Shown: in pieces, positions 27-54,835 of the stretch | Position numbering within the stretch: position 1 is the first letter of the stretch | Layout: each line of letters begins with the position of its first letter | Origin: Sipunculus nudus | Taxonomy: Eukaryota > Annelida > Sipuncula > Golfingiida > Sipunculidae | Direction: 5' to 3' | Assembly (NCBI GenBank): GCA_026874595.1 | Contig: CM049310.1 | Span: 2,542,001 to 2,606,000 of the forward strand | DNA: 64,000 nucleotides | Translations under genes and position numbers: made by a program | Notes under the pieces: model-generated | What the model was told of the DNA's origin: nothing | Seen by the model: only the letters and a program-made list of their open reading frames with translations | The model's database searches: none

Positions 27-140
27 CGGCAACCCCATGTAGCAGCAACCCCTGTCAGAATGGAGCCACATGTACCGTACAAGGAAGTGGATATGTCTGT
101 ACCTGTGCTACTGGATTTTCTGGCATCAACTGTCAGACTG
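27..140 (+). CDS. EGF-like exon 1 (cassette type A)
   Basis: The acceptor is TTCAAG and the donor GTAAAG, both phase 1. The exon encodes a complete six-cysteine EGF module with C-S-S-N-P-C (O-glucose consensus), QNGATC (O-fucose consensus) and [10 protein letters not shown] (O-GlcNAc consensus). There is no D-x-D/N-E calcium-binding start, so it is probably a non-calcium EGF. It is nearly identical to the exons at 2040 and 4792. It is the first exon visible, and the protein continues upstream. Confidence 0.88.
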
Positions 141-1133
141 GTAAAGCATTTTGTCTTGTAATTTTAGGAAATTCATAAGTACCTCTTGTGCATAAACTTA
201 AGTATTGATAAATTGTATTTACTTTTCCATCAGACATACAAAAATTAGGGATAAAAATTAGGCAATACTGGTTATTTATGATATATTTCCAGCCTAGTTT
301 TGCTTTGAAATGTAGGTTATAGATAATAGAAGCATTACTGCTTTGAAACTTTTATAACTGCATATAACTGACATTTTCAGAATATTCTGATCCCCCTAGT
401 TCTGTATGGGAATTATTGGTAGGACTAGGGTTTGAGGGGATAATCTGTGGACCAAACTACAGTGTGTTAAATTAGGACTGGCTGGCCTGGGCATTTGCAG
501 GATAGTAGGAGTTCATTCAAAACAGGCAGTGAAGCATCCAGGCAGGTGTCACACTCATTTAAGTGATTCTAAAGCCCTCAGTTTGAGGCATCCCACAGGC
601 TTGAAATCTTTGAAAATCACGAATAAGTTCTTTATACATTCAAGGCCTTGAAAGACCTTGAATTTAATTAATTTTGAAACCTTTACTTGGAGAGACTGTC
701 AATTGAACTCTAATATTAATGGCTGACTTTGCTATGGTTGACCAAGAGGGGCAAGGCTTTTTTACCTGCAAATGTATGTCTGTAGACTCTGTCTTGAAAT
801 GGATAAATAAAGAAATCAAAGAGGACCAGACTGCTGAAGTGGTGGTAATGCAGATACCTGTATTCAATTAAACTCCAGAAAATTCAAATTTATATCCCTT
901 GGGGGGACAAAATTGAAAAATCTTCAAAGTAAAAAAAAAAAAAAAAATGTATTGAAACCCTTAGCTTGGTTAGAGTGGTTCAAACAAAAAACAACAAAAC
1001 AGCAACATTTCTTTGTATGTGTTTTGTTCAATATATATTGCACTGATGATATTGGATACTGATAATATAAAATTGTCCAAAATTTAATGAACATTATTTT
1101 CTTGATATCATCTTGGAATTATGTGTTTGATAG

Positions 1134-1250
1134 TGGTCAATGGTGCATGTGCCAGCAACCCTTGTCAAAATGGAGCTACCTGTACTGTGGTAGGATCTGG
1201 GTACGCCTGTACCTGTCCCTCTGGGTTCTCTGGTGTCAACTGTCAGAACG
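1134..1250 (+). CDS. EGF-like exon 2 (cassette type B)
   Basis: The acceptor is TTTGATAG and the donor GTAAGC; length is 117 nt, phase 1-1. It has six cysteines, starts [10 protein letters not shown] and ends [10 protein letters not shown]. It is nearly identical to the exon at 3081, which shares the [10 protein letters not shown] core. All three Notch-type O-glycosylation consensus sites are present. Confidence 0.9.
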
Positions 1251-1518
1251 GTAAGCAAACCTTATAAATATTTAAATATGGCAGATTTCCCATTTTGTAG
1301 TATTTCTTGAATGTGCAGTTATTTTGAAACCTGGTAAACTGTAAAGAAACCTTAGCTCTTACCATACAGGGTTTGCATAAGCTGTGAAATGAGTCCATTA
1401 AATTTTTTTATGTATTTGATAAATGTACCCCTGTCCAAAATTAATCTCTAGCTGGTGAAGATTTTGCATCAACTTGCTTCTAATTATCAATGACATATTG
1501 CTCTGATAATTGTTTCAG

Positions 1519-1632
1519 CCCCAAACTACTGCCTGAGTAACCCCTGTCTTAATGGAGGTACCTGCACCTCAACAGCAACAGGCTGGCAGTGTACTTGTCC
1601 ACCAGGACTGGGAGGTCTACAGTGTAACCAGG
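1519..1632 (+). CDS. EGF-like exon 3 (cassette type C)
   Basis: The acceptor is TGTTTCAG and the donor GTATGT, phase 1-1. It has six cysteines with [12 protein letters not shown] and the distinctive STATGWQCTC core. The last loop, CPPGLGGLQC, has no Ser/Thr, so the O-GlcNAc consensus is absent. It pairs with the near-identical exon at 4369. Confidence 0.9.
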
Positions 1633-2039
1633 GTATGTTATGGTCATGATTTATATTATCATCATCATCATTACTATTCACTACTGTTTACAAATGGTTT
1701 CTACCATGTGACTTTACCACAGATCTAAACACTCTTTGCTAAAGAAATGGGTAATTCTAATTTTTTTAATGATAGGTATAATTAATCATTGTCATTCACT
1801 ATTTAAGTCAGACCTCAAGTCAAACAAAGTACAACTACCCTTGTATCCCTGACAGGATACTTTTTCAGTCCTTCATAAATGTTGAATATCCCAGGTCATT
1901 AATTTTCAGTATTATTTGAAAGAAATGTCTACACCTATTATATTTGCAATTTCATCCTAAAACAACTAAAAACAAATGACATGTCCTTAATTCTAACTTG
2001 GTTTACAATAAATACGGACCTTGGTGATTTCTTTCAAAG

Positions 2040-2153
2040 CAGCCACCCCATGTAGCAGCAACCCCTGTCAGAATGGAGCCACATGTACAGTACAAGGAAG
2101 TGGATATGTCTGTACTTGTCCAGCAGGATTTTCTGGCATCAACTGTCAGACTG
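2040..2153 (+). CDS. EGF-like exon 4 (type A, second cassette)
   Basis: The acceptor is TTTCAAAG; an alternative AG three bases further in would remove one codon. The donor is GTAAAG. The protein differs from exon 1 by very few residues ([10 protein letters not shown] instead of [10 protein letters not shown]). The bases just after the donor also resemble those after exon 1, which supports duplication of genomic DNA. Confidence 0.9.
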
Positions 2154-3080
2154 GTAAAGTGTTTTATGCATTGTAATAACTGCATAATCTTAAATACTAC
2201 TTGGGCATAACATAAAGTTTGATTGAAATATTGCTCTGTTAGGTAAATGTATTTAAATATTAATATTAATTGCTTTATTATATATTAATATATATAATAA
2301 TGCTGTATTCTATATGAATACTTAATACTGTGAAACCGACTGTTGTGAATTTACAGTGTTGTTTTTCTTCAGCGTGAATGCTTGATATATATTAATGTAT
2401 ATTTGCTTTGTAAAATTCACTTCTGAGTGATTATAGATTAGGGGTTTATCCTGACAGTCTTTCATTTTGTCCTGGCTGGCAGTATCACTTTGAATATGGT
2501 AATGGTATATTATCAGCTTTGGTCTACTTTTCAACTTGAGTTTGAGTTCAGAATTCAGTGGGTCATGACTTGCTGGTAGTGGATCTGAATCATGAATTTA
2601 AACAGTTCTACTTGTAACCATAATGGTAAAGATTTGAAGCTGACAGAATATTCTTATTCATTCAGTGTGGAATTGATAGTTATAGGTAGTGTTAGGTATT
2701 GAGTGGGCAGTCAGAGACACATCTAGCGGAAGAATGGTTCTTTTAAGTCAAGAATTAGCTGGACCAGGTTTCTGCATAATAATGGGGGCCCATTTACAAA
2801 ACCAGTCACTAAAGGCAGCAATAAGTGCCAAAACTAAATTAAATATAAATTTGCTAACTTTGTCCAGAGTGTAAAACAGGATGGTTAGAGTGACATGTGT
2901 AACATTGAATAAAACAGCAACAACAATAATGTCATTCTTTTATTCATTATTTAATAAGAAATACACTAGTCATGTAAATTACTGATAATATAAAATCCAG
3001 GTACTTTGTCTTCTTTATTCTCACTAATTATATGCAGCTCTTTTTGGAAAAGAATTATTTTTTACTTCTGTGCTTTACAG

Positions 3081-3197
3081 TGGCTAATGGACCATGTGCC
3101 AGCAACCCCTGTCAGAATGGAGCTACCTGTACCGTGGTAGGATCTGGGTACGCCTGTACCTGTCCCTCTGGGTTCTCTGGTCTAAACTGTCAGAACG
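3081..3197 (+). CDS. EGF-like exon 5 (type B, second cassette)
   Basis: The acceptor is GCTTTACAG and the donor GTGAGC; length is 117 nt. The encoded module matches exon 2 except for a few residues (A-N-G-P-C start, CPSGFSGLNC end). Six cysteines and all three O-glycosylation consensus motifs are present. Confidence 0.92.
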
Positions 3198-4368
3198 GTG
3201 AGCAAACTCGAAAATAGGGGTAGGATATTGCCCAGTGTTCAAAGCAATGAATTATGTGGTGCAAAAACCCCTATTTGAACCCAAATCACAACTAAGTTTA
3301 AAGGGCTAAATGGTCAGATCTTGATAGAAATATATAAAACCCAAAATAATGTATTTGCTCTATTGTTTCAACCACTTGTTATTATTACAGTGATCATATG
3401 TTTTACATGAAAAAAATAGGACTTAACCACTATAAATTGAAGGCATGATTCATTACCTTTATTAGCATACTCAATATTGAATTAAAGGTTCTTGAATTTT
3501 ATGCACCACTTGAAATACATGAAATCTTAAAAATAAGTTCAATTACATGTTAATAAAATGTCAATGAAGTTTACCATGGTTAGATAGATAACACTTGTTA
3601 TATGAATATGAGCTAATAAAACTTAAAGAGTTCTTCTGTGACCAATTTGATTAGTTATTACAATAAAGCCTGGAAATCAGTTGACTTATAGTGACTCTTC
3701 TCTGTCATAAACAGATTTATACACTGGTCGTAATAACACCTTTCGGCTTGTCTCAGGCAGGCAGACTTGTGCACAGAAAGGCATATTTCATCATATTGTA
3801 TCAGTCTGTTGGAAAGATGAATGCCTAGATTTCTCCACATTAGTAGCTGATAAGTAGATACAAACATGACACAAAATGTTTATTTTACAGGTGGTATTCC
3901 ATTAACTCCCTATATTTCCTATATCTTCCTATAAAATAGTCTATAATTTCTTATACTTTCTGGCATTTAGGCCCTCATCTCCTGTCCTTTTTGTTCTTTT
4001 CACTGCACAGTTGTGTTTCTGATATAACAATGTTACTCTCAAAAACAATTTTTTTTTGTATGCAAGTGTGCATGTAGAATGGCATGTAAAATTGCAGAAT
4101 CAGGTTTACACTGAGCAAAGTATGACTGAAAGTTTGATATGATGGTAGGATGCATATTTAGCAGAAATATATTATTTCAGCCCAAAAGTTAACCTGTAAT
4201 AATGCCTTTCTGTTTGAAAGGTGAAAATTTCAGTCTTACCAGCCTTGTTATTGATATTTCAACTCTCATAAAGGTAATATACAATTAAAGGATTACTGAA
4301 TATTTCTTAAGGTGCTGCAAAAATCATTGATTAGTGAATGGTTGATTCAGAAAATGTATCTTTTGTAG

Positions 4369-4482
4369 CACCCAACTTCTGTCTGAGTAACCCTTGCTTT
4401 AACGGAGGCACATGCACCTCAACAGCAACAGGCTGGCAGTGTACTTGTCCAACCGGACTGGGAGGTCTACAGTGTAATCAAG
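4369..4482 (+). CDS. EGF-like exon 6 (type C, second cassette)
   Basis: The acceptor is TTTTGTAG and the donor GTACAA. It is nearly identical to exon 3, including the STATGWQCTC core and CPTGLGGLQC end. It keeps C-L-S-N-P-C and FNGGTC and lacks the Ser/Thr of the last-loop O-GlcNAc site. Confidence 0.9.
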
Positions 4483-4791
4483 GTACAAGAAATATTATTG
4501 TTTAAACAAATTCAATTTATTTGTTAATATTTTTATTTCATTATATATATATACCCATTAACTTTATTTTGTTTTTGGTCTATTCTTTGTGTATGTGTGT
4601 GTCCAGAAGATATCAGAAGAAAAATTTCATGAATTTTGGAGAAATGTGACAGGTAGGTAGAGAGTATGAAGTTAGTTTAATTTTAGTTTTAAGTTCCCAT
4701 GCAAATAATCTCAAGATGGACATATTTTCCAAAAGCCAGTCTAAATCAGTCCATAGCATAAATGATGTAATTCTTGTTTTTTTTTAACAAG

Positions 4792-4905
4792 CTGGGACCC
4801 CATGTAGCAGCAACCCCTGTCAGAACGGAGCCACATGTACAGTACAAGGAAGTGGATATGTCTGTACTTGTCCCGCAGGATTTTCTGGCACCAACTGTCA
4901 AACTG
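4792..4905 (+). CDS. EGF-like exon 7 (type A, third cassette)
   Basis: A T-rich tract leads into an AACAAG acceptor; the donor is GTATGT. It begins G-T-P-C-S-S-N-P-C and carries the [11 protein letters not shown] core of exons 1 and 4. Six cysteines and all three glycosylation motifs are intact. Confidence 0.9.
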
Positions 4906-5232
4906 GTATGTGGTTTCTAATTGTTAAAAATTGTACAGTTTTGCTTTATATCATATGATTTTTATTAAATGTCTTTAGGAGAGATTGAAGAGATATCCAC
5001 CAAGGATTACAAAGTAGGAGTTCAGCTTTCTGTGTTGTAAACTCTGACTGTTGTTGGCCAGCTGGGGTTGTAACATCCCAATACATGTTATTCCACTGAA
5101 ATTATTGTGCCTGTTCATATGTATCTCAGCAAGATCAGATTTTTTCTAGAACTCAACATATATCTATGAGGCAAAGGAATTTTAGAGTATTAATTCAGGG
5201 CTTGAAAGTAGTCCATTCTTTTATCCTGACAG

Positions 5233-5346
5233 TGGCCACTCCATGCTCCAGCAACCCCTGTCAGAATGGAGCCACCTGTACAGTCATTGGTTCTGGATAC
5301 GCCTGTACCTGCCCTCCTGGATTCTCAGGATCCAACTGTCAGAATG
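5233..5346 (+). CDS. EGF-like exon 8 (type B, third cassette) with a GC donor
   Basis: The acceptor is CTGACAG. The module reads [10 protein letters not shown] then a [10 protein letters not shown] core and [10 protein letters not shown]. Its start resembles type A and its core type B, which suggests exchange between cassettes. The only phase-compatible donor is GCGAGT at 5347, making a GC-AG intron. The nearest GT, at 5351, would break the frame. Confidence 0.85.
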
Positions 5347-5874
5347 GCGAGTACATTTCATCCTCACTTATTGCAATATCCCACACTGTCATAGAAGATC
5401 ATGGGAATTACAGCAATTGAAAAATACAAGAGTAGCCTCTGTTGTTGCAAATTATAGTGCAAGAACTGGCAATTGGTATGATATTAGCATGCTCAGATAT
5501 TGCAAATGACAGGGAATCATAGATACTCACAGCATATTTAGAGAGGTCACAGAAAATGGAAGACAGTTGTCAGACACAACCCTCATACCCCAGCATAATG
5601 TAAGCTGGACAGTGTGTTATGTTAGATGTCTTGTAAGGGGTCATCCTGCATTGTGATATGCTATGGTTTCTTGTGACTCAAAGGATGAGTTACTGGATTG
5701 TCTTGAAATTTTATAGCTTTTGAGAGATTTATCAGTTTTACAAGAGTGATGGTGCCCGTGCAACCATTATCTTTACATGTACACATTGATAGCTCAGTTT
5801 ACTTGACAGAGGTGGATGTTAATGTGTAAGTAATAACTACTGTTTTTAAATATTCCATTTCTACTTAATTCCAG

Positions 5875-5988
5875 CACCAAATTTCTGTCTGAGCAACCCA
5901 TGTAGAAACGGAGGTGTCTGCTCATCATCAGCTACAGGATGGACTTGTGCCTGCCCCCCCGGGTTCTCAGGAGTTGACTGCCAAACAG
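5875..5988 (+). CDS. EGF-like exon 9 (type C, third cassette, diverged)
   Basis: The acceptor is AATTCCAG and the donor GTACAA. It begins P-N-F-C-L-S-N-P-C like exons 3 and 6 but has RNGGVC in place of the O-fucose site. Its core is SATGWTCAC, and the last loop, CPPGFSGVDC, does carry the O-GlcNAc consensus. It is the last exon of the three-cassette block. Confidence 0.9.
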
Positions 5989-6156: not shown

Positions 6157-7147
6157 GCCAGTAAGTCACATGTCTACACCAGTAAGCCACATGTCTACAC
6201 CAGTAAGCCACATGTCTACACAAGTAAGCCACATGTCTACACCAGTAAGCCACATGTCTACACCAGTAAGCCACATGTCTACACCAGTAAGCCACATGTC
6301 TACACCAGTAAGTCACATGTCTACACAAGTAAGTCACATGCTTACACCAGTAAGCCACATGCCTACACCAGTAAGCCACATGCCTACACCAGTAAGCCAC
6401 ATGCCTACACCAGTAAGCCACATGCCTACACCAGTAAGTCACATGCTTACACCAGTAAGCCACATGTCTACACCAGTAAGTCACATGCTTACACCAGTAA
6501 GCCACATGTCTACACCAGTAAGCCACATGTCTACACCAGTAAGCCACATGCCTACACCAGTAAGCCACATGCCTACACCAGTAAGCCACATGCCTACACC
6601 AATAAGCCACATGCCTACACCAGTAAGTCACATGTCTACACAAGTAAGCCACATGCCTACACCAGTAAGTCACATGTCTACACAAGTAAGTCACATGCTT
6701 ACACCAGTAAGCCACATGCCTACACCAGTAAGCCACATGTCTACACCAGTAAGCCACATGTCTACACCAGTAAGCCACATGTCTACACCAGTAAGCCACA
6801 TGTCTACACCAGTAAGCCACATGCCTACACCAGTAAGCCACATGCCTACACCAGTAAGCCACATGCCTACACCAGTAAGCCACATGCCTACACCAGTAAG
6901 TCACGTCTACACCAGTAAGTCACATGCCTACACCAGTAAGCCACATGTCTACACCAGTAAGCCACATGTCTACACCAGTAAGCCACATGTCTACACCAGT
7001 AAGCCACATGTCTACACCAGTAAGCCACATGTCTACACCAGTAAGCCACATGTCAACACCAGTAAGCCACATGTCTACACCAGTAAGCCACATGTCTACA
7101 CCAGTAAGCCACATGTCTACACCAGTAAGCCACATGCCTATACCATT
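6157..7147. repeat. 21-bp minisatellite, about 47 copies, in intron 9
   Basis: A head-to-tail array with unit core CCACATGTCTACACC plus AGTAAG. Variants are GTCT/GCCT/GCTT and GTAAGC/GTAAGT. The period is a multiple of three, so several frames stay open by chance (VSHMSTP, HVYTSKP and so on). One copy near 6900 has a 2-bp deletion that shifts them all. I treat it as intronic and non-coding. It lies between EGF exon 9 and the suspect exon 10. Confidence 0.95.
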
Positions 7148-7539
7148 AAAAAAAGATGATCCACTTAGTTTTCAATGTAAGCAAATCTTTTAACACATAA
7201 CTGAGAGATAGCCGTTATTTAAAAAGATTTATAAAAAGCAACATTCAGGTGATTACACAACATATTTTCAAATCAGTGTTTTGAAAACATACATGAGTAA
7301 TCCCAGTGTCCCTTTACAGATACAAAAGAGTGCTGCTTTTCCCAATGCCGTTTTCAGAAAATTCATTTTTCCAGAATGATAAATGGGGAAAAATTATATT
7401 TTACAAAATATTTTTAAGCATGTAAATGCTTCTTATGAATTATTGTAATAATGAGTCACAAGAGCCTGCAGTCAGGTGTTTAAGCCCAGTGGTGAGGGAG
7501 AAGTTTACTCAATTTTAAGCTTTGGCATTTCCTTAGTAA

Positions 7540-8423
7540 TTGCAATATGTCTAGTGGATTTGTTGGTGACATTGTTAGATTGTTCAGATCATACAATTTA
7601 AATAACTTTCTAATTTCATATATGGAGACTATGACGTTTTGTAATCAGAATACGTGGAAAGACCTTGTTCAGGATCAGATTATAAAGCAAGGTGTCCTCC
7701 ACTTTGATATAAGAACAAGAGGTAAACTTGAGTTCAGAATGCTAAGAGCTGTACAAAGTGAGCCGTTTATTCCTTGTAAAATATGGTACGCCGCCAGGGA
7801 CATTCCTGGATCATTTAGTATATTCTGTTACTCGGCGCAGTTATTATCTGCATCAGACACGTATCCTGCGTCTCAACTTTGCCATTTTTGCGGCAAGATG
7901 TATAATTCTCCGTTACTTCATGCATCTTTATCATGTTCAAATTCTAGTGAAAGCAGAGCCTCTATCTGGAACTTTATATTAGATAAACTTCCCTTCACAG
8001 TTAGCGCTGCACTAAGTATTCTTGGTGATTTCGACTTTGTTGCTACTTTGCTTGGTAAAGATTTAACAGATTGTCCAGACTGGACATATGAACTTTCTGT
8101 TCTGTATATTTATCGGGCAGCTTTGTTCTTTAAAGAAGTAAGACCAGTAATAGAAGCCTTGTAATTTTCAAGTGAGATGTTGCCTGATCTTTCTCATTTT
8201 ATATATATATAAAAAAAAATAATTAATTTTCCTCTCCTTGCAATTATAACACATTAATTGTAACATTATTACATCCTTTTGTAATCTTGTATTTTTCACG
8301 TTGCAGAACCTTCACTGATTTAATTATTATTTATTATTAGTTTTCTTGTCATGTTTACATATGTATTGCATTTGATTGTACTCTTCGATCTCTCGGAGGA
8401 AATAAAGATTATCAATCAATCAT
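7540..8423 (+). mobile_element. 5'-truncated non-LTR retrotransposon (LINE) 3' fragment
   Basis: An ORF at 7547-8164 (205 residues) contains C-H-F-C-G-K, then H and C spaced like the zinc-knuckle found after the reverse transcriptase domain of many LINEs. It is followed by 3' sequence ending in an AATAAAG and an ATC-rich repeat tail (ATCAATCAATC) at 8411-8423, typical of LINE 3' ends. The RT core is absent, so this is a 5'-truncated insertion, though its ORF end is intact. The clade is uncertain. Confidence 0.6.
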
Positions 8424-8825: not shown

Positions 8826-8945
8826 TGGTAAATGGAAATGCCTGCTCAAGTAACCCCTGCAGGAATGGTGCCACCTGTGTAGCAAATGGTTCCGGCTTTT
8901 TATGCCAGTGCCCTGCAGGATTTTCTGGAACCCTCTGTGATCAGG
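8826..8945 (+). CDS. EGF-like exon 10, splice acceptor missing (possible dead exon)
   Basis: An open six-cysteine module ([26 protein letters not shown]) ends at a GTTTGT donor. By alignment with other exons (TG + GTN + AAT) it should start at 8826. The preceding bases are TTTGT, not an AG. The nearest upstream AG, at about 8785, is out of phase. The exon is either not spliced in, uses an exotic acceptor, or the assembly has a base error. Its loss would leave the frame intact because both sides are phase 1. Confidence 0.55.
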
Positions 8946-9677: not shown

Positions 9678-9791
9678 TTGCCACGGCATGTGCCAGCAAT
9701 CCCTGTCTTAATGGAGGTACCTGTGCTGTCTCTGGCAATGTCTACTTCTGTACCTGTCCTCCAGGGTATGCAGGAGCCAACTGTCAGTTTG
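9678..9791 (+). CDS. EGF-like exon 11
   Basis: The acceptor is ATCTTGCAG and the donor GTAAGA, phase 1-1. Six cysteines: [13 protein letters not shown], then [11 protein letters not shown]-glucose and O-fucose consensus sites are present. The last loop has Ala in place of Ser/Thr, so there is no O-GlcNAc site. Confidence 0.92.
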
Positions 9792-11537: not shown

Positions 11538-11651
11538 CACCTTCCCCCTGCTTCAGCAACCCTTGTCTGAATGGTGGTGCTTGTTCGGTCAATGGCAACA
11601 GCTACATATGTTTCTGTGCTACTGGATTCTCAGGAACAAACTGCCAGTTTT
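11538..11651 (+). CDS. EGF-like exon 12
   Basis: The acceptor is TTATTCCAG and the donor GTATGT. The exon ends on T, which joins CG of the next exon to make Ser. Six cysteines: [12 protein letters not shown] (no O-fucose Ser/Thr), [10 protein letters not shown]. Confidence 0.9.
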
Positions 11652-12354: not shown

Positions 12355-12468
12355 CGGCTGGGGCTTGTAACAGCAACCCCTGTCAGAACGGAGCTACATG
12401 CACACCCGCTGGAAGTGGGTACACATGTACTTGCCCTACAGGGTTCACTGGGGTCAACTGTCAGACTG
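12355..12468 (+). CDS. EGF-like exon 13
   Basis: The acceptor is AATTTTTAG and the donor GTCAGT. Six cysteines: [24 protein letters not shown], so all three glycosylation consensus sites are present. A 26-bp tandem triplicate carrying donor-like CAGGTAAG lies about 170 bp upstream in the preceding intron. Confidence 0.9.
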
Positions 12469-13077: not shown

Positions 13078-13191
13078 CTCCTAACCCATGCTCCAGTAAC
13101 CCATGTCTGAATGGCGCCAACTGTGCTGTGGTGGGCAACACATACTTCTGTGACTGTGTCCTTGGTTACACTGGAACAAACTGCCAGACAC
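13078..13191 (+). CDS. EGF-like exon 14
   Basis: The acceptor is TTTTCCCAG and the donor GTAAGA. Six cysteines: N-P-C-S-S-N-P-C, LNGANC, CVLGYTGTNC. The O-fucose position is Asn, so that site is lost. The 33-bp minisatellite begins within the next few hundred bases. Confidence 0.92.
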
Positions 13192-13412: not shown

Positions 13413-16400
13413 CACATCATGTAATGGTGCAACATATAGAAAATTCACATCATGTAATGGTGCTACATATAGAAAATTCACATCATGTTATGGTGCTACA
13501 TATAGAAGTTTCACATCATGTAATGGTGCTACATATAGAAAATTCACATCATGTAATGGTGCTACATATAGAAAATTAACTTCATGTAATGGTGCTACAT
13601 ATAGAAAATTCACATCATGTAATGGTGCTACATATAGAAAATTCACTTCATATGATGGTGCTACATATAGAAAATTCACATCATGTAGTGGTGCTACATA
13701 TAGAAGTTTCACATCATGTAATGGTGCTACATATAGAAGTTTCACATCATGTGATGGTGCTACATATAGAAGTTTCACATCATGTGATGGTGCTTCATAT
13801 AGAAAATTCACATCATGTAATGGTGCTACATATAGAAGTTTCACATCATGTAATGGTGCTACATATAGAAGTTTCACATCATGTAATAATGCTACATATA
13901 GAATATTCACATCATGTAATGGTGCTACATATAGAAAATTCACATCATGTAATGGTGCTACATATAGAAAATTCACATCATGTAATGGTGCTACATATAG
14001 AAGTTTCACATCATGTAATGGTGCTTCATATAGAAAATTCACATCATGTATTGGTGCTACATATAGAAAATTCACATCATGTAATGGTGCTACATATAGA
14101 AAATTCACTTCATGTAACGGTGCTACATATAGAAAATTCATATCATGTAATGGTGCTACATATAGAAAATTCACATCATGTAATGGTGCTACATATAGAA
14201 AATTCACATCATGTAATGGTGCTACATATAGAAAATTCACTTCATGTAATGGTGCTACATATAGAAGTTTCACATCATGTAATGGTGCTTCATATAGAAA
14301 ATTCACATCATGTAATGGTGCTACATATAGAAGTTTCACATCATGTGATGGTGCTTTATATAGAAAATTCACTTCATGTAATGGTGCTACATATAGAAGT
14401 TTCACATCATGTAATGGTGCTACATATAGAAGTTTCACATCATGTAATGGTGCTACATATAGAAGTTTCACATCATGTAATGGTGCTACATATAGAAAAT
14501 TCACATCATGTAATGGTGCTACATATAGAAAATTCACTTCATGTAATGGTGCTACATATAGAAAATTCACATCATGTAATGGTGCTACATATAGAAAATA
14601 CACTTCATGTAATGGTGCTACATATAGAAAATTCACATCATGTAATGGTGCTACATATAGAAAATTCACTTCATGTAATGGTGCTACATATAGAAAATTC
14701 ACATCATGTAATGGTGCTACATATAGAAAATTCACTTCATGTAATGGTGCTACATATAGAAAATTCACATCATGTAATGGTGCTACATATAGAAAATTAC
14801 ATTCATGTAATGGTGCTATATATAGAAAATTCACATCATGTAATGGTGCTACATATAGAAAATTCACTTCATGTGATGGTGCTACATATAGAAAATTCAC
14901 ATCATGTAGTGGTGCTACATATAGAAGTTTCACATCATGTGATGGTGCTACATATAGGAAATTCACATCATGTAATGGTGCTACATATAGAAAATTCACA
15001 TCATGTAATGGTGCTACATATAGAAGTTTCACATCATGTAATGGTGCTTCATATAGAAAATTCACATCATGTATTGGTGCTACATATAGAAAATTCACAT
15101 CATGTAATGGTGCTACATATAGAAAATTCACTTCATGTAACGGTGCTACATATAGAAAATTCATATCATGTAATGGTGCTACATATAGAAAATTCACATC
15201 ATGTAATGGTGCTACATATAGAAAATTCACATCATGTAATGGTGCTACATATAGAAAATTCACTTCATGTAATGGTGCTACATATAGAAGTTTCACATCA
15301 TGTAATGGTGCTTCATATAGAAAATTCACATCATGTAATGGTGCTACATATAGAAGTTTCACATCATGTGATGGTGCTTTATATAGAAAATTCACTTCAT
15401 GTAATGGTGCTACATATAGAAGTTTCACATCATGTAATGGTGCTACATATAGAAGTTTCACATCATGTAATGGTGCTACATATAGAAGTTTCACATCATG
15501 TAATGGTGCTACATATAGAAAATTCACATCATGTAATGGTGCTACATATAGAAAATTCACTTCATGTAATGGTGCTACATATAGAAAATTCACATCATGT
15601 AATGGTGCTACATATAGAAAATACACTTCATGTAATGGTGCTACATATAGAAAATTCACATCATGTAATGGTGCTACATATAGAAAATTCACTTCATGTA
15701 ATGGTGCTACATATAGAAAATTCACATCATGTAATGGTGCTACATATAGAAAATTCACTTCATGTAATGGTGCTACATATAGAAAATTCACATCATGTAA
15801 TGGTGCTACATATAGAAAATTACATTCATGTAATGGTGCTATATATAGAAAATTCACATCATGTAATGGTGCTACATATAGAAAATTCACTTCATGTGAT
15901 GGTGCTACATATAGAAAATTCACATCATGTAGTGGTGCTACATATAGAAGTTTCACATCATGTGATGGTGCTACATATAGAAGTTTCACATCATGTGATG
16001 GTGCTACATATAGAAGTTTCACATCATGTGATGGTGCTTCATATAGAAAATTCACATCATGTAATGGTGCTACATATAGAAGTTTCACATCATGTAATGG
16101 TGCTACATATAGAAGTTTCACATCATGTAATAATGCTACATATAGAATATTCACATCATGTAATGGTGCTACATATAGAAAATTCACATCATGTAATGGT
16201 GCTACATATAGAAAATTCACATCATGTAATGGTGCTACATATAGAAGTTTCACATCATGTAATGGTGCTTCATATAGAAAATTCACATCATGTATTGGTG
16301 CTACATATAGAAAATTCACATCATGTAATGGTGCTACATATAGAAAATTCATATCATGTAATGGTGCTAAGTATATAAAATTCACATCATGTAATGGTGC

Positions 16401-17605
16401 TACATATAGAAGTTTCACATCATGTGATGGTGCTTCATATAGAAAATTCACATCATGTAATGGTGCTACATATAGAAGTTTCACATCATGTAATGGTGCT
16501 ACATATAGAAGTTTCACATCATGTAATGGTGCTACATATAGAAGTTTCACATCATGTAATGGTGCTACATATAGAAAATTCACATCATGTAATGGTGCTA
16601 CATATAGAAAATTCACATCATGTAATGGTGCTACATATAGAAAATTCACATCATGTAATGGTGCTTCATATAGAAAATTCACATCATGTAATGGTGCTAC
16701 ATATAGAAGTTTCACATCATGTAATGGTGCTTCATATAGAAAATTCACATCATGTAATGGTGCTACATATAGAAAATTCACATCATGTAATGGTGCTACA
16801 TATAGAAAATTCACATCATGTTATGATGCTACATATAGAAATTCACTTCATGTAATGGTGCTACATATAGAAGTTTCACATCATGTGATGGTGCTTCATA
16901 TAGAAAATTCACATCATGTAATGGTGCTACATATAGAAAATTCACATCATGTAATGGTGCTACATAAAGAAGTTTCACATCATGTAATGGTGCTACATAT
17001 AGAAGTTTCACATCATGTAATGGTGCTACATATAGAAGTTTCACATCATGTAATAATGCTACATATAGAAAATTCACATCATGTAATGGTGCTACATATA
17101 GAAAATTCACATCATGTAATGGTGCTACATATAGAAAATTCACATCATGTAATGGTGCTACATATAGAAGTTTCACATCATGTAATGGTGCATCATATAG
17201 AAAATTCACATCATGTATTGGTGCTACATATAGAAAATTCACATCATGTAATGGTGCTACATATAGAAAATTCACTTCATGTAATGGTGCTACATATAGA
17301 AAATTCACATCATGTAATGGTGCTACATATAGAAGTTTCACATCATGTAATAATGCTACATATAGAAAATTCACATCATGTAATGGTGCTACATATAGAA
17401 AATTCACATCATGTAATGGTGCTACCTATAGAAAATTCACATCATGTTATGATGCTACATATAGAAATTCACTTCATGTAATGGTGCTACATATAGAAAA
17501 TTCACATCATGTAATGGTGCTACATATAGAAAATTCACATCATGTAATGGTGCTACATATAGAAAATTCACATCATGTAATGGTGCATCATATAGAAGTT
17601 TCACA
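13413..17605. repeat. 33-bp minisatellite, about 127 copies, with higher-order repeats
   Basis: An uninterrupted array of a 33-bp unit (core CATCATGTAATGGTGCTAC plus ATATAGAA and a variable AAATTCA/GTTTCA end) fills most of intron 14. A degenerate outlier copy is at about 13231-13260. Variant units recur at a fixed offset of 1023 bp (31 units): compare 14118 with 15141 and 14797 with 15820. A second offset of 2244 bp (68 units) links 13901 and 16145. Because 33 is divisible by 3, long frames stay open on both strands. Two one-base deletions (about 16838 and 17464) break them. Confidence 0.95.
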
Positions 17606-18010: not shown

Positions 18011-18127
18011 CTCCAGCAAATCCCTGTGCCAGCAACCCATGTTTGAATGGAGGCCAGTGTGCCAACAATAATGGAGTGTTTGTCTGTACCTGTCCAACAG
18101 GATTCACAGGGGCCACTTGTCAGAACG
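18011..18127 (+). CDS. EGF-like exon 15
   Basis: The acceptor is CTCTTGCAG and the donor GTAAAG; length is 117 nt. Six cysteines: [14 protein letters not shown] (no O-fucose Ser/Thr), [10 protein letters not shown]. It lies 3' of the large minisatellite, so intron 14 is about 4.8 kb. Confidence 0.92.
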
Positions 18128-18467: not shown

Positions 18468-18575
18468 GGCCATGTGACTCAGTGCCCTGCCTGAATGGAG
18501 GAACTTGTAACGTCTTCGGGTCCACCTATTTTTGTACCTGTCTCACAGGCTATGCTGGAGCCAACTGCCAGTTCC
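18468..18575 (+). CDS. EGF-like exon 16
   Basis: The acceptor is TATTTTCAG and the donor GTGAGT. At 108 nt it is the shortest EGF exon. Six cysteines: [24 protein letters not shown]. It closely follows exon 15 and precedes exon 17, with introns of about 340 and 370 bp. Confidence 0.92.
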
Positions 18576-18944: not shown

Positions 18945-19058
18945 CTCCGAGTGTATGCACTGTCAACCCTTGTCAGAATGGTGGTCTGTGTCTCCTAAAT
19001 GGTGGCACATATGCCTGTAGCTGTCCTCCAGGGTTTACTGGAACAAACTGTCAGACAG
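18945..19058 (+). CDS. EGF-like exon 17
   Basis: The acceptor is CTTTGTAG and the donor GTTGGT. Six cysteines: [23 protein letters not shown]. It is the only repeat without the O-glucose Ser (Val instead), and it also lacks the O-fucose residue. A 17-kb repeat-filled intron follows. Confidence 0.9.
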
Positions 19059-29325: not shown

Positions 29326-29360
<35 letters not shown>

Positions 29361-36310: not shown

Positions 36311-36424
36311 TGGTCAACAACTGTGCCAGTGCCCCATGTCTTAATGGAGGAACCTGTGTCAATAGTGGCAGTGGATACAACTGTACTTGTGTGCTGGGCT
36401 TTACAGGCACCAACTGTCAAATCA
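36311..36424 (+). CDS. EGF-like exon 18 (last EGF repeat)
   Basis: The acceptor is TTCTTTTCAG and the donor GTAAGT. Six cysteines: [24 protein letters not shown]. All three Notch-type O-glycosylation consensus sites are present. It sits 85 bp downstream of a PIF/Harbinger-like element, which must therefore leave the branch point and acceptor intact. Confidence 0.92.
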
Positions 36425-38230: not shown

Positions 38231-38523
38231 CCTGTGGTCCTGTGGATTTGTCTTTCTTACTGGATCAGTCAGGATCTATTGGTAGTGCCAACTGGCCCCA
38301 GATTACCAGCTTTGCCAAGAAGATTGTGACAGCCCTACCAGTGAACCCAGCACAGACCCAAGTCGGTGTTGTCACGTTTAGTATTACTGGAAAGCAGGAA
38401 TTCCCGCTGAACCAGTACACGTCCCAATCTGCCGTGAATAATGCCATTGATGCCATTGTATACAGTGGAAGCTGGACCAATACCTCAGGAGGCCTATATG
38501 TCATGAGAACTCAGACCTTCCAG
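38231..38523 (+). CDS. vWA domain, N-terminal exon (MIDAS DxSxS)
   Basis: The acceptor is CCTTTACAG and the donor GTAAAT; length is 293 nt, entering in phase 1 and leaving in phase 0. It encodes C-G-P-V-D-L-S-F-L-L-D-Q-S-G-S-I-G, the classic first beta strand and DxSxS metal-ion-dependent adhesion site, followed by an amphipathic helix, V-G-V-V-T-F-S and the NTSGGL segment that supplies the MIDAS threonine. These are the hallmarks of integrin-I/matrilin/collagen-type vWA domains that bind ligands through a divalent metal. The rest of the domain is 9.8 kb downstream. Confidence 0.95.
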
Positions 38524-48339: not shown

Positions 48340-48454
48340 CCTGGGTCAGGAGACCGACCAACCGCTCCCAATGTGGCTGTGGTCTTCACAGACGGAGCAT
48401 CAAACAGAGACCAGCAGAACACTATACCGGAGGCACAGAGGGTCCAGGCAGCTG
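48340..48454 (+). CDS. vWA domain, middle exon (FTDGAS strand)
   Basis: The acceptor is TTTGACATCAG and the donor GTAAGT; it enters in phase 0 and leaves in phase 1. It encodes R-P-T-A-P-N-V-A-V-V-F-T-D-G-A-S-N-R. The Asp of FTDG is the third MIDAS ligand. It joins exactly in frame to the exon ending at 38523, so all MIDAS elements (DxSxS, T, D) are present. Confidence 0.93.
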
Positions 48455-48754: not shown

Positions 48755-48922
48755 GTATTACCAGCTATGTGGTAGCTGTTGGTCCACCGAGTCAGATGAA
48801 CACAGCAGAGTTACAGGCCATCGCTAGTGACCCTGACAGCACCTACCTGACCACCCTGGCCACGCTGAGTGATCTGGACTCCGTGGTCAACCAGATGGTA
48901 CAGGGCATTTGTCAGTCCTCAG
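48755..48922 (+). CDS. vWA domain, C-terminal exon
   Basis: The acceptor is TTTTTCCAG and the donor GTCTGT, phase 1-1. It encodes G-I-T-S-Y-V-V-A-V-G-P, a typical vWA strand, then A-S-D-P-D-S-T-Y and a final helix L-S-D-L-D-S-V-V-N-Q-M ending at Cys-Gln. The terminal Cys could pair with the Cys opening the domain (C-G-P-V-D), as in many vWA modules. Confidence 0.93.
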
Positions 48923-49651
48923 GTCTGTAGTAAATGCACAATTATTATTATTTTTATGGAGTTGCTTATTTAGACTTAGGAAAAATGCCTAAAATCCCAA
49001 GTAAAACAAGATATCACTTAATTTGATTTTTTATATATATTACAATATATCAATTTTAGCCATAGAAATATATGCATTTATTTTGTTTGTATTATTCCTT
49101 CTCCGAAAAGAATGGGTTGCTTCACATGGCCAGAATTTCAATATTATTCAGCGAAATGCATGTATTATAATAATTTGTAATAATAATATTACAAATAGTA
49201 AAAAAAAGTAATAGATCTATAGCTTAACACCTCTATCTAGTGGCAGTTCATATGATTCCTGATGAATGCATTGTCAGTATTGCCACCTAAGTTTAAAATA
49301 TCTCATCTTTAATGTCAGAAGAAAGTCCTTCCTTGATTGCATGTAGATGTTTTGCAGCAAGAGCTATATATATATATACACAATATACAATGAAGCATTC
49401 TTACTGATATTCTTACCATATTTTTTGCATCACTGTCAGTCATATATAAATAAACCAAGTCCATCCTCAAACTAATGACACATAACAACCAGACCGTGCT
49501 TTATATTTGTTATATTTGTGTTTCATAAAGCTTCTCCATCAGGCAGTTTTAAATGGAATTCCCTCAGTACAGGAGTCATGGAGTTGACTACACAAGAAAT
49601 GACTGAAATCTTCAACTTGTAAAATCATATGTTCCTACTGCTGTGTGCAGT
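48923..49651 (+). other. Intron after the vWA domain: no recognisable element
   Basis: AT-rich unique DNA with a short (TA)n run near 49370. Nothing supported. Confidence 0.4.
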
Positions 49652-50034
49652 CAGGGGCGTCAATACAGGGGGTTTAGGGTTAAATATCCCCCCCACACAC
49701 ACTTTTTAGCAAGGGGGAATGGTAAATGTAATCATCCCTCCTGCTATTCAGAGAATAATATTTATATAATGAAAATGAAATATATTAATAATTTGAAATA
49801 TAGACTTTGGTGTCATTTCGAGTTTATTATTTAATATTATATATCAAAACCTAGTTTAGAATTAACCTATACTGAAAACATAATAACATATTTTTTAAAC
49901 CTTATACTATATATATATATGTGTTTGTGAGTATGTGTTTATAAAAAAGTTGTCCCATCGTTGATTACCTTGCCACACCTGCTGGTCATCCCCACTACCC
50001 ACCTCCTACCCTTGAAGATAAATTGATGCCACTG
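49652..50034. mobile_element. Short hAT-like MITE with 8-bp target duplication
   Basis: The left end CAGGGGCGTCAAT and inverted right end CAGTGGCATCAAT differ at two of 13 positions. The flanking octamers TGTGCAGT (49644-49651) and TGTGTAGT (50035-50042) match at seven of eight positions, as expected of a hAT duplication. At 383 bp it is non-coding. Confidence 0.65.
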
Positions 50035-50463
50035 TGTGTAGTCATATGACTACCTGGATACTGGTGGGGGGGGGGATCCCCTCATCAAGCTTTCCTGTGT
50101 TATATAACACTTCAGTAACACAGGGTCATGGCATTGGTGTGGCTTCTACCCAGAAACAGAGTAATCACCTTTTCACAATGGTATATAAATCTTTGAATTA
50201 AAAATATATCATGTTGGTCCAGATTAGCTCAAACTTGAATAGATTGTTCCTTTGGTGTTTCTCTAACTCTCCACAAGAAATCTTCAAAATCTGTTAGCAT
50301 AAAGTTGCTAACAGACTGACCACCAACAAAGGAAAAAATCATAAAAGCCTGTCTGAACTAGATAAATTATGTTAATGTCATAAATCTGATGCATGTGAGG
50401 TGATCTAGTAAATATATTTGAATATCTGTAGAACAACGGTGCTAAACCATGCTTTTATTTCAG

Positions 50464-50568
50464 CTGCTCCAGTCACACTGGCTCCAACTGTTCCAACTGC
50501 CCCACCAACATCTCCACCAACAGCTCCACCAACTGTTCCTCCAACTGCTTCTCCTACCCAGCCGCCAG
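50464..50568 (+). CDS. Pro/Thr-rich linker exon
   Basis: The acceptor is TTTATTTCAG and the donor GTACAT, phase 1-1. It encodes 35 residues that are almost all Pro, Thr, Ala, Ser and Val, in loose P-T-A-P-P-T-x-P-P repeats with no cysteine. Such segments are usually extended and mucin-type O-glycosylated (inference). It separates the vWA domain from the LU-like domain. Confidence 0.88.
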
Positions 50569-51041
50569 GTACATTCTTTAATCATTAAAATTGCTCTTCC
50601 TATCAAAATTCTTGGTTGCCATGGATATTAAAATGCAGTTTCTCATCTTTATTATTGATATATTGCATCATGCTTACTGCTTGGTTGAACAGCTAGTTGT
50701 TGAGCTCAACATGCTTTAACCATTCTATTGAAGTTATGTACTGTGTCTAATTGGCATAAATATGATCCGAGTAAATGCCTTGCATAATAATATTGTTGAT
50801 ATCAATGTAAAAAACAGTAAAAGGTTAAATAAAAATAAATGGTCAAAGATTTTGAATAAAATAGTACACATGAGAAATTTAATTAAATGCATGTTTCAGG
50901 TAAGTTTGAATATTGCCATAATTATATTGAAATGTATCTATAAAATCTGATAAAATTTTGAGAGAAAACCAAAATCACCATATTGAGTCAGTAATTTATA
51001 TATAGTGTGATTGAACAGTTTCTGTTTATTATCCTTTACAG

Positions 51042-51182
51042 CGAACAATGTTTGCTTAGACTGTGACACAGACACCTGGGGCACTCTATGTAACACAGAT
51101 GCTATTCTAGCAGATGTTGTGGGAGAGATACCATCAAAGACATGTACAGGGGGCTGTTATATATCTCAAGAAGGAAATGGAA
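51042..51182 (+). CDS. LU (Ly6/uPAR)-like domain, first exon
   Basis: The acceptor is ATCCTTTACAG and the donor GTGAGT, phase 1-1. It encodes V-C-L-D-C-D-T-D-T-W-G-T-L-C and later K-T-C-T-G-G-C-Y-I. The C-x2-C opening and the C-x2-G-C-Y strand match the first half of three-finger Ly6/uPAR domains. No GPI signal follows. Confidence 0.8.
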
Positions 51183-51575
51183 GTGAGTAGCGTGCAGTTC
51201 TTCCTCTTTGTTATTATTTAATAATATTCTGTTAAAATGTTTCTTGGAAATGGAACTTTGAATTGTGATAACACTTAGTTCATTTTAGTCATTTTTTTTC
51301 AAATTTTACATTTAATACTAACTCAAATTACAGATTTCTTTACAAGGCAAAGTAGGTTTCAGACAATATACCATTACAATCAGTTCTTTGGGACATTTTC
51401 TTTGTTTTTTCTTCTGAACTTTGTTATTGACAAAATGGCTGTAAATTGCCAAATAAAGACGACTCAACAGTTAAAGTTAATCAACAGCTAGAGTTCATCA
51501 TTGCTACATTTTAGAAAACAAGGTCACAAATTTTAAGCAGTGTCATAAAAGATACTGATTTAAAAATAAATAAAA

Positions 51576-53171
51576 CTAGATATTTCTTGGCACTGCAGGT
51601 GCCACAGTATCCCCAGACAATTAACCCCCCCCCCCCCCTCCTCCCAGCCTCAATGAATAGGATCCCATCTTGAATTCAGATGCAGAGACTGACACTTGGC
51701 AAGCCTACATAGTTTCTTATAAGTATGGGCATATTTAAGGTAAAGGTCACTCTCATAGGAGAGGTCATGATCCAAATTGAAGTATACCTCATTCTGTAAC
51801 CCCTATCTATATACATGATATGAAAGAAATCTGTCCATTAGTTTTCAACTTATCATGCTAACAGTGCTGTGAAGGGGCAAGGGTGGGGTATTACAAGATG
51901 GGAAAGCAAGAAAACAACACAAGGTGGCGCCTCCTGTATTCTGCAGAAGAGAGAAAAAAATTCGATGATTTAAAAAAAAAAATTTAAATTTAAATTAAAT
52001 TTTTTTTTTAACTTAAAAATTTTTATATGCATGATATGAAAGAAATCTGTCCATTAGTTTTCAACTTATCATGCTAACAGTGCTGTGAAGTGGCAATGGT
52101 GGGGTATTACAAGGTGCAAAAGCAAGAAAACGTCACAAGGTGGTGCCACCTGTATTCTGCAGAAGAGAAAAAAAATCCAAGATTTAAAAAAAAAATAAAA
52201 ATTAAAAGATATTTTTTTTTTTTTAACTTAAAAATATATATATATGCATGATATGAAAGAAATCTGTCCTTCAGTTTTCAATTTATCATGCTAACAGTGC
52301 TGTCAAGTGGAAATGGTGGGGTATTAACAGGCGCAAAAGCAAGAAAACGACACAAGGTGGCGCCACCTGTATTATCATAATCGCTGCTGTGACCTTGAAA
52401 AAATGCATCAAGATCATCCATGTTCGAACTTGAGCTAGCCGTTGATAAGATGTATCAAACCTGTGGGTTTGGTGACTGTACCTAAAATTCTTACAAAGTT
52501 AACATCAATTTAACAAGAAAACGACAAGAAGTAGCGCCAAAGCTATCTGAGATCTTCAGTCAATTTGATTTTTGGATCATTTCATGTATCCCTTACTGAG
52601 ATTTTTAAAGATTTTGTGTGAATTTCACCAAAAATGGGAATATTCAAGGTCAAGGCCATTCTCATAGGAAAGGTCATGACCCCAATTTAAATAAACATCA
52701 TCCTATGACCTATATCTATGTTTATGCATAATTTAAAGAAATCTGTCCATTAGTTTTCGACATATAATGCTCACAGTATTGTCAAGTGGCAATTTTGGGG
52801 GTATTAAAAGGCACAAAAACAAGTAAAGAATAATAGGTGGCGCCACCAGTTTCTGGAACATGACAACCCTATCCATGATCTCCGATCAACTTGATTTTGG
52901 ATCAATCCATGCAAGATTTCTTGAGATATTTAAGAATTTGTGTGATTTTCCAAAAGTTTGGACCTATTCAAGGTCAAGGACACTCTCTTAGTGAAGGTCA
53001 TGACCTCATTTTTAAAAGGTGTCGTCCTCTCACCCATATCTATACATATACCAAGTTTGGTAAAGATCCGTAAAATATTTTTTTGAGTTATCGCGCCAAC
53101 AAGATTTATATGCGGCGGCGTTAGGACTGGTATGAAAACATAGTATCCCCAGACTTTGTCCGAGGATACAA
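51576..53171 (-). mobile_element. Family B-related Helentron-like element, copy B4 (minus orientation)
   Basis: On the minus strand it begins TTGTATCCTCGGACAAAG (a hairpin closing at GGGGATACTATG). Near its end it has GGATACTG, the stem-loop TGGCAC-CTGCA-GTGCCA and a final ATATCTAG/TT. The interior has at least three units of about 300 bp with GAAAGAAATCTGTCC and the palindrome GGTGGCGCCACC (exact at 52356 and 52836). It is a different subfamily from B1-B3. It lies in the intron that splits the LU-like domain. Confidence 0.6.
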
Positions 53172-53406
53172 TTAATAGCAAACATTTTAAATGGTTCTCA
53201 TTTTGAAAGATTTTATTTCTCCACAGTTAAAAATAGGGTGGCACCTCTGAAAATAATCGTCCTCCTCATGCAATACACATTAATATTTCTATTTACCTGG
53301 TAAGCTTTCAGAAGAAATGTGTCTAAGATATAACTGACCTTTACCAAGACCAGTTTATCAAGAATGTTTAAAGGAAACTCATTGTTCTATTAATTCTCTT
53401 TGACAG

Positions 53407-53583
53407 AGGTTACAAGAGGCTGTGTAGAGGACATAGGCCTGGCGACCAATCAGCTGCCAGTGTTTGTCACGGGGTTGAACAGTGTCTGCATCCCATCAGG
53501 CACCACTGAGCGATGCTACTGTAACACTGCTGGATGCACCAACGGATCATTCCAGTCTCTAGGAGGGGGAATCACTGCAAGTA
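53407..53583 (+). CDS. LU (Ly6/uPAR)-like domain, second exon
   Basis: The acceptor is CTTTGACAG and the donor GTAAGT, phase 1-1. It encodes V-T-R-G-C-V-E-D and ends the fold with E-R-C-Y-C-N-T-A-G-C-T-N. The T-R-G-C strand and C-x-C-N-T-x2-C-(T)-N terminus are diagnostic of the LU fold. With the previous exon this gives ten cysteines, the full set. A Gly/Ser-rich stretch follows. Confidence 0.82.
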
Positions 53584-54707
53584 GTAAGTAATCTTGGTGC
53601 CTCTCATCAGAGGGCATTAGCTCTCAGAAAAAATCAGCTAAAGGATATTTTACAATAGTATTTTCAAACTGATAGATAGATCATTTGAGGATTTTGTAAG
53701 TATGGTGGGATATAAATCTAATTTAAAAAAAAATGCACTTAAGTTTGCAATAATAATAATAATAATAATAATAATAGAATATTGCTTTAATGTATATATC
53801 ACTAAAAGATTGAATAAGATGTATGGTAAAGCTTTACACTAACAGTGGTTACTTAATTTGAGACAGAGTTCACAGTAAAATTAAACACTTTTAATCATAC
53901 ATTGTGATATTGAAAAACATTTAGAAAGAAACCTCAGTTTGGACTTAAAAAAGGACACAAATTATAAAATCAAAGTCACAAAATCAGAAGAAAAGTACAT
54001 TTAAGAGAGACTGATCTTTTATATGACCGTAAATGAGTGGTCTGCAATTAAAGACGCAGTGATAGGGGATGAACATGTGGAAGTTCTTTCTTCAAGTTTG
54101 ATTCTTAGTCTTGAACGTAGGACCAAACAAGCTTTTCCTAATCAGTGTGAATAAGGTGGGTAACAAAAGTCTGTAAAAAAGCCCAATTTGAATATAACTT
54201 GAATTCTTTTTAGCAGTGCCTGATAATCTGGCAAAACTTGAAAACTCAAATACAGTGTGACTCCAGCTCTTGTAATGACATGTAACAAACCTCTGCTTGC
54301 TGGCAGATGATATGATAACTGCAACATTCTGAACTTTGACCTGGATGTAATATTCATCTATTTTTCAAATTATTATCAATTATTGATTTGCTTGTCAATA
54401 CTTAAAAATGTTTTTCTTTAAACTATGTGATTCTGATACTCCAAAATCAACACACCTCATAGTAAACTTTGTATATATGTCTGTTGAACTCAGCAGCTTA
54501 GTATAACATTCTACTCCATGTCTTTGACCTGAACATGGTCATTTCCTTAATAAATAATTGTCTGGTTTAAATTTTCAACTTATATTCAAAGATATATATA
54601 TATATACATATATATATTATCACAATCAGTCTTACCCCTATTTTTTGCACATGCCGTAAAATTTTACCTCTAGATCACATACTGAATATTTCTCTGCTTT
54701 ATTTCAG
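53584..54707 (+). other. Last intron; contains an (AAT)n microsatellite
   Basis: Mostly unique AT-rich sequence. An (AAT)n tract runs from about 53749 to 53776 and a (TA)n tract lies near 54595. No further element is seen. Confidence 0.6.
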
Positions 54708-54835
54708 ATTTTATCTCTTGCACCTGTGGAACATGCAATGTAGTCACGGCAAACCCATACAGCTGTGTTATCAACACCCTTGTCCCTCGCTGTGGATGCG
54801 GCAATAATTGCGGAACATGCGACTATAACCCATAG
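54708..54835 (+). CDS. Terminal exon: Cys-rich tail and stop codon
   Basis: The acceptor is CTTTATTTCAG. The exon encodes 42 residues including the split codon, then TAG at 54833-54835. Eight cysteines occur (C-T-C-G-T-C, Y-S-C, R-C-G-C-G-N-N-C-G-T-C). I do not recognise this module. It has no hydrophobic C-terminal segment, which argues against a GPI or transmembrane anchor. Confidence 0.85.

Follow-up and report, generated by a model that had tools for sequence, protein, structure and literature searches.

A predicted EGF-repeat and vWA gene of Sipunculus nudus with an LU-like domain and a cysteine-rich tail at its C-terminus

The window considered here is a stretch of 64,000 nucleotides from Sipunculus nudus (GenBank assembly GCA_026874595.1, contig CM049310.1, here C5; C5:2542001-2606000, + strand), and it holds the 3' part only of a predicted gene whose product combines EGF repeats, vWA domains and a Ly6/uPAR (LU)-like domain. 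A further 120 kb upstream and 10 kb downstream were examined as well, positions upstream of the window being given as negative coordinates, and the assembly searched comprised 1.43 Gb in 153 contigs. The splice model consisted of 66 exons in one stop-free frame, which extended over 118.5 kb, from -63660 to 54835, and encoded 2,794 amino acids, 13.0% of them cysteine; 64 introns were in phase 1 and one was in phase 0. Its order was a leader with a furin-like site, a first vWA domain (vWA1), 57 EGF repeats, a second vWA domain (vWA2), a Pro/Thr linker, a ten-cysteine LU-like domain and an eight-cysteine tail. An earlier, sequence-only reading had placed a chain of EGF repeats, vWA, linker, internal LU domain and cysteine-rich tail between 27 and 54835. 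These parts were recovered there and in that order, and 54835 is the final base of the stop codon; position 27, however, is where the first EGF exon of the window begins, directly behind its acceptor, and the start of the gene lies far upstream.

Forty further EGF exons (-54020 to -621), the N-terminal vWA and the leader exon were located upstream of the window, while no EGF exon was seen between -54020 and -120000. vWA1 occupied one exon on the 5' side of the EGF array (-55624..-55037; Pfam, 4.3e-36). The leader exon (-63660..-63564; MALVVAVALLSAASA) had a phase-1 donor and a predicted furin-like RQKR site. Start exons were sought in the 64 kb above vWA1 with a home-made filter (hydrophobic leader, cleavage-like site and phase-1 donor, the donor matrix being likewise home-made), which three candidates passed; two were nested starts at -63660/-63636..-63564 (MALVVAVALLSAASAAPRQKRQAP), and the third looks poor. 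The features in the window, where EGF exons were recognized by cysteine motif and splice sites, were as follows:

27..140, + strand: EGF exon, the first in the window and 41st in the gene model
1134..1250, + strand: EGF exon
1519..1632, + strand: EGF exon
2040..2153, + strand: EGF exon
3081..3197, + strand: EGF exon
4369..4482, + strand: EGF exon
4792..4905, + strand: EGF exon
5233..5346, + strand: EGF exon with GC donor
5875..5988, + strand: EGF exon
8843..8938, + strand: EGF motif without AG acceptor (no in-phase AG within 60 bases), omitted from the model
9678..9791, + strand: EGF exon
11538..11651, + strand: EGF exon
12355..12468, + strand: EGF exon
13078..13191, + strand: EGF exon
18011..18127, + strand: EGF exon
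18468..18575, + strand: EGF exon
18945..19058, + strand: EGF exon
36311..36424, + strand: last EGF exon, 57th in the gene model
38231..38523, + strand: vWA2 exon a, with D-Q-S-G-S (translation, splicing, Pfam)
48340..48454, + strand: vWA2 exon b, entered in phase 0, with T-D-G motif (translation, splicing, Pfam)
48755..48922, + strand: vWA2 exon c, donor CAG/GTCTGT, the slash marking the exon end (translation, splicing)
50464..50568, + strand: Pro/Thr linker exon (translation, splicing)
51042..51182, + strand: LU-like exon 1, cysteines C1-C5 (translation, splicing, paralogue, LU profile)
53407..53583, + strand: LU-like exon 2, cysteines C6-C10 (translation, splicing, paralogue, LU profile)
54708..54835, + strand: eight-cysteine tail exon and stop codon (translation, splicing, paralogue)
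54933..54938, + strand: poly(A) signal of AATAAA/ATTAAA type, with a second such signal at 54942

Rfam (gathering threshold) and tRNA scans of the window gave no match.

A cysteine regular expression identified 18 EGF motifs on the + strand of the window and none on the minus strand. Of these, 17 had usable splice sites, 16 of AG/GT type and one with the GC donor that follows 5346. The remaining motif, 8843-8938, lacks an AG acceptor in phase and is therefore probably a dying exon that is skipped; since its borders are in phase 1-1, the frame is unchanged by its omission. The earlier count of at least 18 repeats thus stands for motifs (18 in the window and 58 in the gene), less this one in the predicted product. 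Just 5' of the same motif, an open frame at 7496-8164 resembles the tail of a retroelement when its translation is read by eye.

The phase of the array was examined by requiring AG and GT for the introns, with the acceptor 4-20 bases upstream and the donor 4-12 bases downstream of the motif. Phase 1 was satisfied for 56 of 58 EGF motifs, phase 0 for none and phase 2 for 3, and a related gene elsewhere on the contig, described below, gave 38 of 39 in phase 1 and none in either other phase. A GT stood exactly 7 bases past the last cysteine codon in 57 of 58 motifs, whereas the other eight offsets averaged 4.4. The AG, GT and phase-1 counts alone prove little, because they were search criteria for the EGF exons. 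In the window, the spliced chain came to 1,021 residues, and the linker, the ten-cysteine domain and the tail fused in frame without a stop, so that the shared frame and intron phases join all parts, as the sequence-only reading had argued. Its proposal to run profile searches on the spliced product was borne out for two of the three domains: Pfam EGF (PF00008) was found in 17 stretches (1.6e-125), which are the 17 model repeats of the window, and VWA (PF00092) covered a complete vWA2 (1.1e-39 in the window chain and 2.1e-41 alone), while no LU family appeared. The 40 upstream repeats were counted by cysteine motif, the Pfam run having covered the 17 in the window; EGF_CA was not among the ten Pfam families at E<=1 in that scan of the window chain.

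Both vWA domains retained the metal ion-dependent adhesion site (MIDAS) motif, as D-S-S-G-S in vWA1 and D-Q-S-G-S in vWA2, and the profile spanned the whole domain. Among the best 60 of 107 PDB rows for vWA2, collagen VI a3 and the mussel byssus protein PTMP1 were on top, PTMP1 (4cn8) being the second row (1.4e-26). No membrane-like segment was found in the full model outside the leader, mean hydropathy being at most 1.31 in every 19-residue stretch, and there was no hydrophobic C-terminus of the glycosylphosphatidylinositol (GPI) type, as the last 30 residues had a mean hydropathy of -0.06 and ended C-D-Y-N-P. The lack of a visible membrane anchor reported earlier extends to the whole predicted product. 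Consensus sites for glycans, taken from the available part of PMC9672378, were counted over the 58 EGF motifs: 55 carried a site for O-glucose, 38 for O-fucose and at least 31 for O-GlcNAc, the O-GlcNAc pattern used being narrower than the published one.

The paralogue lies on the same contig, 33 Mb away (C5:35.445-35.505 Mb). It was detected with the LU and tail protein sequence as query, which at E<=1 gave, besides its own exons, one match (C5 35,498,453; E = 0.003) with vWA exons nearby. The 60 kb read there contained 39 EGF motifs, with further vWA matches between EGFs, and its 3' end comprised a split vWA, two EGFs, LU exon 1, LU exon 2, an eight-cysteine tail and a stop. As in the window gene, the LU and tail exons started and ended in phase 1. 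The last vWA matched Pfam at 6.7e-44, in a version assembled by eye in which two residues at the first junction are probably wrong. Across the LU domain and tail, 58 of 139 aligned residues were identical between the two genes, and nucleotide differences numbered 65, 54 and 91 at the first, second and third codon positions. The paralogue differs in having two EGFs in place of the Pro/Thr linker, and in the position at which the last vWA is split. A third gene with this ending was not found in the genome at E<=1 with the window query or at E<=10 with the paralogue query, where only first-look candidates were scored.

According to the part of PMC6600238 available, LU domains have 60-90 residues and ten cysteines paired 1-5, 2-3, 4-6, 7-8 and 9-10, with an Asn after the tenth, and are encoded by two exons, generally with phase-1 flanks, the intron between them cutting loop 2 at its tip. 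The window domain comprises about 90 residues with ten cysteines; the two exons that encode it have phase-1 borders and are divided between C5 and C6, which in LU domains is the loop-2 tip. The exon pair thus has the anatomy that source describes (PMC6600238, same part). The paralogue domain has ten cysteines in a longer stretch. Six LU domains found in this genome via PF00021 and PF17064 were combined into a profile; five of them had been assembled by eye from two exons each, so that residues at the joins may be wrong. The window domain aligned to this profile with hhalign at E = 5.8e-5 (score 28.7). None of 300 plain shuffles and none of 300 that kept the cysteines in position scored as high, the best of them reaching 27.7, and a control EGF profile gave E = 0.056. 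The best Pfam match of the window domain was a family of unknown function (E = 0.22), while the paralogue domain matched DUF753 at 0.0079, below the cut-off. The last 148 residues alone had no Pfam match at E<=1, and the eight-cysteine tail had no PDB match at E<=10. LU domains elsewhere in the assembly were concentrated at C4:75.53-75.73 Mb, which held 25 of 30 PF00021 (UPAR_LY6) matches among the matches listed; at each of the three loci read there, a single open frame encoded a leader, a repeat stalk rich in Ser and Thr, an LU domain and a GPI-like hydrophobic end.

Taken as a whole, the locus is read, with a probability of about 0.6, as one gene whose product, of about 2,794 amino acids, would be a secreted extracellular tether with two heads, an EGF spacer and a knob formed by the LU-like domain and the eight-cysteine tail. 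Several results weigh against this reading. The gene model was built from genomic sequence alone, with predicted splicing. vWA2 exon c ends in a poor donor, which scored 1.1 (4 of the 23 window-chain donors scored lower), and retention of the intron that follows would add G-L-stop and end the protein two residues on. The paralogue's 39 EGFs carried only 12 sites for O-glucose, 3 for O-fucose and 25 for O-GlcNAc, and the sugar coat is therefore not common to both genes to the same degree. No LU-named Pfam family matched the ten-cysteine domain at E<=10, in searches where HMMER filters drop most weak matches, and a PDB search with the domain gave no LU match. Its tenth cysteine is followed by T-N, where the signature wants C-N, and because the Asn is not directly after C10 the domain is here termed LU-like. 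Against the LU profile, the window and paralogue pair reached only E = 0.0098, a score attained by plain shuffles in 1 of 60 and then 2 of 250 cases and by cysteine-keeping shuffles in 0 of 60 and then 6 of 250; the paralogue alone gave E = 0.11, so that of three runs only the window domain by itself was strong.

The locus may instead give rise to several proteins, through the skipping of symmetric EGF exons or through early ends, with the 66-exon product being one isoform or none. Lengths divisible by three in 62 of 66 exons (21 of 24 in the window chain) would permit this, and the EGF exon without an acceptor and a body of damaged EGF sequence in the introns also speak for it. The latter includes three decayed EGF exon copies, at -47850, -47373 and -45817, and a tandem array from -33867 to -30661 with 21 units of 153 bp (97% matches), whose consensus includes an acceptor and an EGF exon up to two thirds of its length; by tblastn this array comprised 20 partial EGF copies followed by one complete exon with a donor, and would thus set about 20 decoy acceptors ahead of one real exon. 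On the other hand, the full frame was intact, the only other start exons inside the array to pass the filter (12814/12820) were poor-looking, and isoforms would leave the ending unchanged. Multiple products in place of the single tether are on this evidence rather unlikely.

That the ten-cysteine domain is an unrelated cysteine-rich module, and not LU, is unlikely. The missing Pfam and PDB matches, the displaced Asn of the window copy and the weak profile scores of the pair and of the paralogue are what such a module would produce; yet the ten cysteines, the two exons with phase-1 borders, the C5/C6 intron and the window domain's profile match with its shuffles and EGF control weigh against it, and the paralogue does have C-N. 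LU identity is therefore likely rather than proved, since cysteine order, exon pair, intron place and profile agree where Pfam and PDB have no match. The internal LU domain of the sequence-only reading survives to that extent, by its anatomy and by likeness to LU domains of the same genome.

A role as an immune-recognition protein of blood or mucus, and not a structural tether, would accord with the duplication and loss of EGF exons and with the many vWA exons in the genome (150 scored of 397 candidates). However, the duplicated EGF exons within the gene are under purifying, not diversifying, selection: in 35 pairs from five groups picked by eye, the pooled proportion of nonsynonymous differences (pN) was 0.083 and that of synonymous differences (pS) was 0.471, while 60 bases of adjoining intron, aligned without gaps, had an identity of 0.20-0.55 in 33 pairs and 0.95-0.97 in two. 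Moreover, Pfam recognized only EGF-type and VWA families in the window chain, besides one weak FXa_inhibition match below the cut-off. An immune role is quite improbable, and of the functions first proposed, adhesion or matrix remains the best reading, with shell, byssus and immune roles not told apart.

That the LU and tail exons form a separate small gene, the EGF/vWA protein ending after vWA2, is very improbable: the poor donor at the end of vWA2, the stop that lies two codons past it, AATAAA/ATTAAA signals at 49449 and 50197, and the usual organization of LU genes in three exons with their own signal sequence (PMC6600238, part available) would suit it, but the region 48922-51041, scanned for the independent LU start that the sequence-only reading had named as its refutation, held no signal-peptide-like start exon with a phase-1 donor even at a lax donor cut-off of the home-made filter, the linker and LU exons carry on in phase, and the paralogue, with its shared order of vWA, two EGFs, LU exon 1, LU exon 2 and tail and its shared phases, argues against it.

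The preferred reading is thus a secreted tether, most likely an O-glycosylated, two-headed one of matrix or adhesive type. The leader and the RQKR propeptide would be removed and the protein secreted; as no membrane anchor was seen, it would act in matrix, mucus or glue. The N- and C-terminal vWAs may bind ligands via their MIDAS, perhaps collagen, as PTMP1 does (PMC4754843, part available). Between them, the 57 EGFs would form a long, disulfide-stapled spacer, sugar-coated in view of the near-universal O-glucose sites and the many O-fucose and O-GlcNAc sites. A Pro/Thr hinge would set off the terminal knob, in which a putative three-finger LU-like fold and the eight-cysteine tail may supply an extra protein contact or self-association.

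In the part of PMC6600238 available, LU exons are described as symmetric and mostly in phase 1, like mobile modules, yet LU is found predominantly alone or repeated, and is termed a 'proto-module' with few other settings (GPIHBP1, SP-10 and TGF-beta receptors). By that account LU rarely occurs in mosaic proteins, in agreement with the sequence-only reading, and a terminal LU is unusual for matrix proteins of this kind. The LU domain may have come into the present gene by exon shuffling, as a phase-1/phase-1 exon pair, before the duplication that produced the paralogue. The chances are about even that LU became a true shuffled module here, the phase-1 pair and the eight-cysteine exon having joined a vWA/EGF gene, been duplicated, and been conserved as a knob at the C-terminus of giant two-headed tethers that make up a new family, one member of which has an O-glucose site on nearly every EGF. 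If so, the two paralogues, each an EGF/vWA mosaic with LU at its end, would clearly exemplify LU shuffling, and the knob would offer a testable binding element in a matrix tether. Irrespective of this, the locus displays EGF exons copied, selected and lost inside one gene. The chain was not named in the literature searched (titles and the beginnings of abstracts), animal protein databases being outside the scope of that search.

Other repeats accompany the gene. Between -20013 and -18838, the 3' end of the neighbouring EGF exon (APFTGPTCTD) is matched repeatedly over short stretches, several of them about 55 bases apart, and these are read as another satellite seeded from an exon end. A 33-bp minisatellite of about 127 units lies within an intron, at 13413-17605, and has long open frames on both strands (1,372 and 1,110 amino acids), which are attributed to the unit length of 33 being divisible by three and not to a gene; in a 21-bp minisatellite of 47 units, also intronic, at 6158-7149, open frames of up to 356 amino acids probably have the same cause. 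Downstream of the gene, on the minus strand at 58123-59769, open frames read by eye resemble pieces of a non-LTR reverse transcriptase.

The sequence-only reading had assumed a mollusc, which was not confirmed by searches of the genome for five markers. Haemocyanin and annelid erythrocruorin linker had no match in the genome, and control genomes gave none either. Three haemerythrin matches all lay on C118 and C128, taken unchecked for bacterial contigs. One i-type lysozyme of the genome was nearest in PDB to 8bbu (124.8 bits), presumably the medical-leech destabilase, and then to 2dqa (75) and 3ab6 (72.8), presumably bivalve lysozymes; this is one gene and gives no phylum call. A search for oxidase subunit III (COX3) returned 18 matches in pairs on C60, C61, C62, C66, C72, C74, C75 and C89. 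The places read on C89 and C66 had bacterial-type gene sets, and for one oxidase subunit the nearest relative with a name was an uncultured Spirochaetia metagenome-assembled genome (62% identity). Because the two COX3 places read look bacterial, the assembly seems to hold bacterial genomes, several of them related.

Matrix proteins with vWA and EGF domains are common. Matrilins and their kin resemble the window protein in setting vWA beside an EGF stretch, in being secreted and in acting as linkers between fibrils; unlike it, they have few EGFs and a C-terminal coiled coil instead of an LU domain and eight-cysteine tail. Notch and its ligands likewise have EGF repeats with consensus sites for O-glucose, O-fucose and O-GlcNAc, whereas the window gene product has no membrane-like segment outside the leader and no EGF_CA match in its 17 window repeats. 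PTMP1 of the mussel byssus (4cn8) is also a secreted invertebrate protein with two vWA domains, and it binds collagens; it differs in size (48.5 kDa against about 2,800 amino acids), and no EGF array, LU or cysteine tail is described for it in the available part of PMC4754843. The limpet adhesive proteins are similarly large and cysteine-rich, with EGF repeats, and belong to an adhesive mucus, but among the rows listed in the part of PMC7333891 available they combine these with vWFD, lectin, Kazal and other domains and not with vWA and LU. Ly6/uPAR proteins, as described in the same part of PMC6600238, share the ten cysteines, the two phase-1 exons and the inner intron in loop 2; they are mostly single or repeated LU domains, free or GPI-anchored, whereas here the LU-like domain ends an anchorless EGF/vWA mosaic.

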